Shown here: piece after piece, positions 1-3,000 of the stretch
Layout of the letters: the number at the start of each line of letters is the position of its first letter
Numbering within the stretch: the first letter of the stretch is position 1
DNA from: a virus
DNA length: 21,700 nucleotides
Reading direction: 5' to 3' (one strand)
Virus record (IMG/VR): IMGVR_UViG_3300005617_000715
Span: 1 to 21,700 of that record
The notes under the pieces: generated by a model
What the model was told of the DNA's origin: nothing
Database searches by the model: none
Seen by the model: the letters and a program-made list of their open reading frames with translations, nothing else
Position numbers and translations under genes: made by a program

Positions 1-3000
1 GCTATATTGCGTGTCTGATATGCCTTCCCTTGAAGTAGCCCGCGCACGCAGAGCGTATTGGTCATCAATCAAATCTTGGGCTTCTTCCTCCGTTTTGAAC
101 TTCATCGCATCCGCAGGATTACCCGTCCAGTTGCTGAGGTAATCCATGCTCCGGGGATTATTGAACCTCCAGAAATAAATGCGGTGCCCATCGTTGTGGC
201 TAAGGTAAGAAATTGCAAGAGGTCTGCTCAAGCTCGTCAAATAATCCTTCGCACTAATCGCATCCGGGTCTTGCGCCTCCGTCTGTGGCCTTTTCGTTGT
301 GCTGAAATTCAACACTTCCTTCACTCGATTAGGATCATCCTTATCTTCACAAGCGCCTTTGAACTGTAAACTGTATGCCGTAAATTGCGGTTTCACTCCT
401 CCGGGGCCGAAAATGTCCAGTCCGGCGAGTTTGTCAGCAACACCTTTCTTGACGTAAGCAATCGTGCAATGCGGGTTGTACGTGGGAAACTTATCCTCGT
501 TTGGAATTGCCGCCTTGATACGCTTGTTCAAATCGTGCAACCACGGTGATTCGATACCAAGCTTGAGCACGTCGTATTCTGGATTCGTGTTGAATAGCGA
601 AAGCTTCTCAAAGAAAATTGGAAACGGTCGCGTAGTCGCCATAATCTCCCGAAGCTCCTGTGGCGCATCATTCACGGTGAGACCGTATTTCACGGTGATG
701 TGGGGCTCTAGTTCGCGACCCATGGTGTCGTCACCCTCCTTCGAGTACAGCCATTCATCCGGCACGTTTATTTTGCCCCAGTTCACTACAAAGTCAGCAA
801 GCTCGCGGGGCAGCGAAATCAGCGTCACTGCAAACTTGTAGCCGCTCTCCATCAATAACGCCTCATTCAGTGAGGTTGACTCGTATACAGGCTCCACATT
901 CGGGTGACCCTTAAAATTTGCAAAAGTATCACCCGGCAGGTGATAGCGCGAATACGCGCTCCAGCGCATGTTATCACTACGCTCTGCCATGAAAGCTTCC
1001 GCTTCGGGACGTGTTGAAAAACGCTTTGCATCTTTCGCTACCGGTGTAAAACTGACCGGGCCATACGGAGCAAAATCAATCCAGTAGAGCTTCTGACCCG
1101 CCACGTCCTGAGTGATCACAAACTGCGGCGTCAAACCCATAGCCATCGATTTCGGATCAACCACATCTGGTTCCTGATCCTCCAGCAGTGACTCGCCCAG
1201 ACCCGGTGCAGGTGGCTCAGACTGGCCTTTCGCGTAAGCATCCCACGCTTCCTTGCTCGTTTTCTCGGGATGCTCCTGTTTCAACTGCTTCCACTGGGTT
1301 CCCGTCATCCTAACTGTCGCCCCATTAGGATAGTGTTCGCTGTATACTTGATAATGACCTACCTCCCTGTCTTCAGGTGTAGCACCAAACAGATCGGATT
1401 GATGCGGATCAACATGCTCACGCGCTGGCATCGGCTTCAGTTCCGAAAGTAACTCCGAAAGGCTGTCCGCCACGACCTGTTTGTCGTCGTCCAAACTACC
1501 GTGGTATTCCTCGTGCGCTTCCAACTTCAGCGCGTTTGTCGGAAGGTCGTCAATCGACCCGTCGTACGGATCGTTGCCCTCTTCTTCGTACTCGGTCATC
1601 CATTGGCGAATCTTTTTCCACTTGATGAAGTACGCTATTCTCTCCTTGCCATTAACTGTCTTCCACACTCCCTCCGACCCAAAAGCTTCCTCGACCACTC
1701 CCAAGTAGCCTTTGAAATAAGCGTCCGTATAAATCGTTTCCAGTGCGCGCCGGGCTGCCTGCTGAAGCGCCTCCACGATGTCTTCAAGATCACCCCCATC
1801 CTGATAGTCCTCGTAATCGTCCAGAATGTTTTCGATGTCCTTGTCAGTATACTCGTCAACCACTTGCGGTGTCAGCAGCAGGGGTTCGTTATCCACAAGG
1901 ATATTACGCCCCACCAACGCTTTGCGAATTAACGCGTAGTGCTCAGGAGCCAAATACCCAGTAATGTCGCGCACATCCATTTTCTGTTCCCACAGAAAAC
2001 TGAACCAGTCGTGCGTTTCATTTGCGAATATCTCCTCAGCGGCGCGCCGGTGACTGTGTCGATGGTCATCCTTGAACAGCGCAGCAAGATCGTTGTAATC
2101 GGAGAACGTAATCCAGACGCCGTCCCGATTCATCAAGTCCATCGGATACCGAAAGAATTTTGCCGCCATCTTAACATCGCCCTCCATGGCGGCTTGAATC
2201 GCGATGCTATTGTCCATAGCGGCATCTGATCCCGGACTCATCCGGCGCAGATAACCCTTCACCATGCCAAGGCCGCCGAAGCCGAACACGAATTTGAAGT
2301 ACGTCTCAAAGTCCTTCCGCATTCGCTTCTTGAAAAACTGGGCCAGCACCTGACCGGCTTTGACACCCTCCGGCTTTGTCTTCACCAGTTCGTCTGGTGG
2401 AATCGTATACCAGTGCCCATTTTTGCTGGCTTCCTGAATCAAAGCGTCATGCTGACGAATCAACCATGCCTCACCCTTGGTGGGAATAATCAAAAACAGC
2501 GGGCCTGACTCCACGTAATGATCCCAACTATCGTGCGAGCGCCCATTACCCATCGGGAAACCGTACTTCTCCAACGTGGCGAAAGTGTGCGGCATGAAGA
2601 TGCGCAGCGTCTCATCTGAGTACAGTTCCTTGCCTGAGTCATACCCGCCGTGAATCACCCACTTTTTGTAATCGGTGCCCAATTCGTCTTCCGGCGGCAA
2701 CGGCTGTCCGCGCTGGCGTGCTTCATTAACCAGCAGTGGTTCGATCTGGACGCCGGACTTTTTATCGGCGGGCAACGCCGATGTGCTCTCGCGCTGAGCT
2801 TCCTCCGCCGAAGCAAACACTTTGGCTTTTTCCTTCTGCACCCACCACCCATGCGGATGGCTGTTGAAATAGTATTTTCGCGGGCCGTCAATAATCACCG
2901 ATACAAAACCACCACCCATGCCGCCAAGGTAAGCACGCGGATCAACGGCATCCGGGTCAGCGTCCTCAGCGACCCGGCGCTTTATATTTTCGATGAACGG

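Follow-up and report, generated by a model that had tools for sequence, protein, structure and literature searches.

2H phosphoesterase domains are found in phage polyvalent, portal and MuF proteins, and Iyer et al. 2017 (PMC5512222) treat them, in the portions of that paper available to us, as one class, for which they propose a role as RNases or as degraders of host-defence nucleotides; the same portions state that such 2H versions are never seen together with RNA ligases. The available text of PMC9503650 deals with virion-embedded polyvalent effectors and places 2H domains in RNA repair, and that of PMC7824862 assigns the 2H protein of jumbo phages to 2',3'-cyclic phosphates. The anti-defence enzyme Acb1 (T4 gp57B; PF23474) becomes active only ~15 min into infection, according to the excerpt of PMC9117128 from which the Acb1-defining residues used below were also taken. 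The other group with which a phage 2H domain has to be compared are the RNA 2',3'-cyclic phosphodiesterases LigT/ThpR and CPDase (TIGR02258). To see counter-defence enzymes in such domains of phages is reasonable, and this view was already published in 2017 (PMC5512222).

The DNA stretch analysed here as a whole, referred to as the window, comprises 21,700 bases of an IMG/VR virus record that is classed as linear and hence often a fragment. Among its genes are those for a T4-type portal, the baseplate protein gp25, a helicase and a glycosyltransferase of family 9. A PADLOC search gave no match. At the left edge lies a giant open reading frame (ORF) that contains no internal stops and runs off that edge, its true C-terminus thus lying outside the window. 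The reading frame is open from a TTG at 5964 (1988 aa); the likely start is the ATG at 5778, directly after the preceding gene, which gives 1926 aa to the window edge. The features on which the following comparison draws are:

19237 to 21165, minus strand (shared with the giant ORF): T4-type portal (gp20), PF07230 2.1e-19
11936 to 13153, minus strand: glycosyltransferase family 9, PF01075 1e-8, syntenic in loci L009, L010 and L095-L097
7589 to 9346, minus strand: helicase (ResIII/DEAD), PF04851 3.9e-16
6145 to 7122, minus strand: replication-initiation-like HTH protein, phrog_4707 9e-12
5780 to 6148, minus strand: conserved neighbour of 122 aa, function unassigned, present in 4/4 relatives' records
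1 to 5778, minus strand: giant ORF, at least 1926 aa, ATG at 5778, 3' end past the window edge
304 to 852, minus strand: 2H phosphoesterase domain, ORF residues 1643-1825 (PF13563, phrog_755, AF2 model)
694 to 702, minus strand: first H-x-T motif (HIT, context PHITVKYG), H and T invariant in 70/70 aligned domains
463 to 471, minus strand: second H-x-T motif (HCT, context PHCTIAYV), H and T invariant in 70/70, but within the scan pattern

The 2H domain shares its strand with the portal and gp25 and lies ~18 kb away from them, with the helicase and replication-like genes in between. It is the only recognised domain in the visible 1926 aa, and Pfam scans of this part recognised no virion domain. 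The glycosyltransferase (11936-13153, minus) contains a CxxC-type insert with weak matches to DnaJ/Anti-TRAP zinc-binding models, and a protein that has a PA14 domain and matches Ig-like models weakly is encoded at 14436-15764 on the plus strand, opposite to the portal and the giant ORF.

The domain itself is real. PF13563 (2_5_RNA_ligase2) matches it with an E of 1.7e-11 when the domain is searched alone and of 4.4e-10 for the entire 1926-aa ORF, phrog_755 ('RNA ligase') matches at 9.5e-11, and its AlphaFold2 model (pLDDT 94.8, pTM 0.88) has 35 PDB matches at E<=0.001, every one listed being a 2H protein. With two H-x-[TS] motifs and the 2H fold it belongs to the 2H phosphoesterase superfamily. 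An earlier note on this DNA had described an intact 2H-phosphoesterase with both H-x-T motifs at normal spacing, and this holds for the complete domain, in which HIT and HCT are 77 residues apart (His to His); the position given there, 379-786, does fall on the domain, whose true extent is wider (304-852). The domain is very probably active as an enzyme. Of the more specific models, LigT_PEase scores slightly over its cut-off (6.7e-5), Pfam Acb1 (PF23474; 3.2e-4, 20.9 bits) falls under its gathering cut-off of 27 bits, and TIGR02258 (25.2 bits) under the NCBIfam cut-off of 65.7.

A tblastn search found homologues in 14/50,697 phage records, with E down to 4e-23. Scanning viral contigs with the single domain sequence returned no relative; with an alignment of 8 sequences at least 597 stretches matched, and 570 viral loci were confirmed, 80 of which were kept. 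After 11 apparent duplicates had been dropped, the window and 69 of these 80 loci formed an alignment of 70 rows, in which H51, T53, G57, P127, H128, T130, A132, Y133 and K135 are invariant and the catalytic H, T, H and T are present throughout (70/70). Because the scan pattern, PHxT[IVL]AY[VL]K, itself requires the second motif, only the first H-x-T motif and G57, together with the columns close to invariance, speak independently for selection. At E<=0.01, 2_5_RNA_ligase2 matches all 70 members, Acb1 66 and LigT_PEase 46. The window domain is a member of a large, widespread phage 2H family, which is frequently associated with genes for the head and for packaging.

Its closest kin among characterised 2H proteins depends on the measure. 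Searched against PDB sequences, the 70-member profile places Acb1 at the top (phage BCSR5, 1.9e-8, with a second entry at 2.3e-6; FBB1, 9.3e-5), followed by archaeal LigT-like proteins (2e-4 and 2.8e-4) and YjcG (5e-4), and none of the 13 sequences that it matches at E<=1 is a Usb1 chain. By fold, where rows less than 1 Z apart count as tied, the model is closest to TT0787 (1iuh, Z 15.6) and 4qak (titled only phosphoesterase, 15.5), then to drCPDase (15.3), E. coli LigT (15.3), YjcG (14.4), Usb1 (14.2) and Acb1 (12.8); LigT/CPDase, YjcG and Usb1 thus outrank Acb1 (Z 15.6-13.9 vs 12.8), which is shorter, and Foldseek with the same model also has drCPDase and LigT first. Since sequence leads to Acb1 and overall fold to LigT/CPDase, the evidence on the window domain points two ways. 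The Acb1 tetrad H44, T46, H113 and T115 is matched by the window domain and kept in 70/70. The aromatic residues with which Acb1 stacks on the base are Y12, W74 and F107; the position of W74 holds F in 69/70 (F87 in the window), and that of F107 holds F/Y/W in 42/70 and H in 27 (F122 in the window). Y12 falls into different columns in two alignments. At E141, the adenine contact, E occurs in 6/70, window E179 among them, in a C-terminal part whose alignment is uncertain, and at the lid residue W147 no W is found in any of the 70, here in a poorly aligned tail. The window domain also differs from Acb1 in being ~30 residues longer (183 vs 151-152) and in staying below the Pfam Acb1 cut-off, unlike the family members L025, L030 and L054, which pass it. 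With LigT/ThpR and CPDase it shares the highest fold similarity and a similar length, but it falls far short of the TIGR02258 cut-off, and the family profile matches them more weakly than Acb1. In T4-like RB59 (L090:1294-2110) the Acb1 gene (57B) adjoins ipI, an internal head protein gene.

The blocks of the giant ORF are separated by seven copies of a ~85-aa unit (PDxVDPxDYL...). Each copy was scored with a leave-one-out HMM built from the other copies, 200 shuffled versions of the copy serving as the comparison, and every copy scores over its best shuffle. From the N-terminal end, modules and blocks are arranged as follows:

5494 to 5772, minus strand: module m1, the weakest copy, 11.6 bits vs 7.6
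4594 to 4872, minus strand: module m2, 21.0 bits vs 7.0
3481 to 4488, minus strand: block B, a homologue of the gene that precedes 2H in L009/L010 (33% over 346 aa, E 6e-42)
3244 to 3489, minus strand: module m4, 26.7 bits vs 6.6
2959 to 3240, minus strand: module m5, 41.4 bits vs 4.3
2695 to 2958, minus strand: module m6, 25.9 bits vs 4.7
1390 to 2652, minus strand: block C, homologous to the same L009/L010 upstream gene (24% over 459 aa, E 1e-30)
883 to 1170, minus strand: module m7, upstream of the 2H domain, 31.2 bits vs 5.7
1 to 270, minus strand: module m8, directly after the 2H domain, 39.8 bits vs 8.8

No copy of the module was found in the other 2H loci examined for it, a single-protein scan of three modules against viral_contigs matched no DNA, and the module alignment has no stretch conserved enough to serve as a scan pattern. 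Its model (pLDDT 72.7) has no PDB match at E<=0.001. In Pfam, block B has no match passing the cut-off and block C no match; block B is also rare: it was confirmed at 3 loci, and the records of L009 and L010 account for two of these. The giant ORF contains the string HEEYH, which was considered as a metallopeptidase motif; it lies within block C and is taken as chance because it is not conserved in L009/L010. A conceivable arrangement is a polyprotein cut by a prohead protease at L-x-E sites between the modules.

The nearest 2H relatives of the window are L009 (48%), L010 (45%) and L011 (46%). In L009 and L010 the order is glycosyltransferase, helicase, the 122-aa gene, a block B/C homologue, a separate 2H gene and a very long protein, and L096 follows the order of L009 as far as the 2H gene. 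Synteny is partial in L011, in which the replication-like gene, the 122-aa gene and 2H matched, and blocks B and C, the glycosyltransferase and the helicase were unmatched in the stretch examined. As the 2H gene of L009/L010 overlaps the gene before it in a different frame, the single ORF of the window represents a fusion, and as the nearest relatives with the same gene order have 2H as a separate gene, this fusion is specific to the lineage. On these comparisons, the giant ORF is composed of two neighbouring genes of its relatives and seven copies of an unnamed module. In the tree, the window groups with L009-L011 with a support of 99/100, and its clade lies inside a 32-row set (support 96/78, slightly under the mark, the bootstrap being unsettled) that contains all 14 packaging rows, L081 counted, and 0/21 fused rows. 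Because the fused rows fall outside this set, the giant ORF probably does not descend from the classical polyvalent proteins. The 2H proteins of L009 (7965-9278) and L010 (7959-9587) extend into a region that contains HExxH as well as a conserved QKQEVMAWA stretch; no Pfam family matches there, so that the motif is the only sign. The very long proteins after the 2H gene carry a near-threshold PA-IL lectin match in L009 (9294-15677) and a metallophosphatase domain in L011 (8706-13994).

Elsewhere in the family, the 2H domain lies within an ORF of >1000 aa in 18/80 IMG/VR loci and of >600 aa in 23/80, duplicates counted. Pfam searches of seven embedding ORFs chosen from these 23 identified LPD38 in L025, ART-PolyVal in L071, Phage_portal with a sub-threshold MuF match in L084, Phage_portal_3 in L087, MuF with a sub-threshold Mu portal match in L057 and a histidine phosphatase in L030; L054 has no families besides the 2H ones. 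In Tunturiibacter phage Tunturi_5, a cultured relative, gp321 (1362 aa) is preceded by a head-tail connector gene and one small gene and followed by a minor tail protein. The window thus shares with the class of Iyer et al. 2017 the 2H type, aligned relatives with ART-PolyVal, LPD38, portal and MuF domains, and the proposed anti-signal or RNase role; it differs in that its ORF has no other recognised effector or virion domain and in that its branch of the 2H tree clusters with genes that stand alone or belong to packaging operons rather than with fused ones.

These packaging operons provide the most useful lead of the analysis. In LR756511 (L002) the 2H gene lies between terminase and portal, and the order terminase, 2H, portal on one strand recurs in at least 16/87 loci (L002, L013, L018, L019, L023, L026, L027, L029, L031, L060, L061, L062, L074, L080, L082 and L088), among which L029/L031 and L060/L061 look duplicated. 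The count is a lower bound because a single query pair, the LR756511 terminase and portal, was used; L081 matched only the portal of the two. A T4-type portal is present in 30/52 records searched, chosen among those behind the 87 loci. It lies on the same strand and at most 2.6 kb from 2H in 12/24 IMG/VR records and 1/6 phage records, and on a different strand in 5/30. Distances of <10 kb are seen in 15/24 IMG/VR records, against 8.4 expected under uniform placement, and for contigs >100 kb in 5/12 against 1.3 expected. The available parts of PMC5512222 and PMC7824862 contain no mention of this order that we found, and together with the seven-copy ~85-aa module around the 2H domain it looks to be new. 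The LR756511 portal gene (L002:9128-11701) carries a seeming intein-like insertion, as read by eye from its translation.

The earlier note had offered Acb1-like counter-defence or an activity on RNA ends, and both are possible. Our main reading, to which we give a tentative probability of about 0.45, is that the window 2H domain degrades a small nucleotide signal of host defence. Its substrate would be a signal made by the host during infection, either a cyclic oligonucleotide or a nucleotide with 2'-5' or 2',3' linkage, and catalysis would be metal-independent, the two H-x-T motifs serving as an acid-base pair by analogy with Acb1. For this reading speak the first rank of Acb1 by profile, the tetrad kept in 70/70, the aromatic positions, the ART-PolyVal, LPD38, portal or MuF domains of the embedding ORFs, and the same proposal in the available text of PMC5512222; against it, the lower rank of Acb1 by fold, the lack of W147, E141 in just 6/70 and the Pfam Acb1 score below cut-off. 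Alternatively, the domain might open 2',3'-cyclic phosphates on RNAs, like LigT/ThpR or CPDase, e.g. on tRNAs cut by host ribonucleases, with repair or the removal of a damage signal as the aim. We hold this to be somewhat unlikely, even though LigT/CPDase have the closest overall fold, PF13563 is the best Pfam family of the domain and the accessible part of PMC7824862 assigns the jumbo-phage 2H in this way. RNA ligases bear on both readings: matches over the cut-off occur for PF09414 in 7/20, for PF09511 in 6/21 and for RtcB in 2/21 records, together 11 distinct records (of 20 or 21 searched, which may be fragments), arguing for RNA-end processing and against signal degradation. In the records of the nearest relatives, however, no ligase passes the cut-off (PF09414 0/3 in G001-G003, with a weak partial match in G003; PF09511 and RtcB each 0/4 in G001-G003 and G048), no RNA-repair gene was recognised among the window proteins scanned, and the statement in PMC5512222 on the separation of these 2H versions from ligases, as far as its available portions go, points the same way. 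A metal-independent Usb1-like ribonuclease, delivered or expressed late, that trims or destroys host RNA is very improbable: Usb1 structures do match (Z 14.2), and PMC5512222, in the portions available, relates such an activity to the MuF/portal fusions, fused RNase domains being the analogy, but the profile lies nearest to Acb1 and reaches no Usb1 chain.

How the enzyme would reach its substrate is a separate matter. That it is injected at time zero within a giant multidomain protein, as the earlier note supposed, has no support specific to this protein: the nearest relatives have 2H in a gene of its own, and no virion domain is recognised in the ORF; in addition, all 21 fused members lie outside the window's tree branch, and T4 Acb1 acts late, so that injection is unneeded for an Acb1-like role. 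Virion association does have backing at the level of the family, through fusions to portal and MuF (L084, L087, L057) and to ART-PolyVal/LPD38 (L071, L025) and through the terminase-2H-portal order, and the HExxH region of the L009/L010 2H proteins recalls the metallopeptidases that the available text of PMC5512222 describes as processing such proteins. On balance we consider it unlikely that the window domain sits inside the virion as part of a polyvalent polyprotein that is injected.

A wider and quite improbable scenario, which keeps signal degradation as the activity, is that one branch of large phages, those whose portals are T4-type, has the 2H enzyme built into the terminase-portal operon, so that it is made together with the portal, packaged next to it and brought into the next cell along with the DNA; the lineage of the window would then have moved 2H into a giant module-spaced polyprotein, paired in its relatives with a metallopeptidase-like domain that could release pieces. 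If 2H enzymes were packaged in this way, many large phages would bring along an enzyme that wipes out nucleotide alarms and is already active by the time the host could raise CBASS-like or related defences. The terminase-2H-portal order offers simple, testable candidates for this, including stand-alone proteins of 170-230 aa that are easily expressed, and the fused case of the window is useful mainly as a sign that the location of 2H varies.
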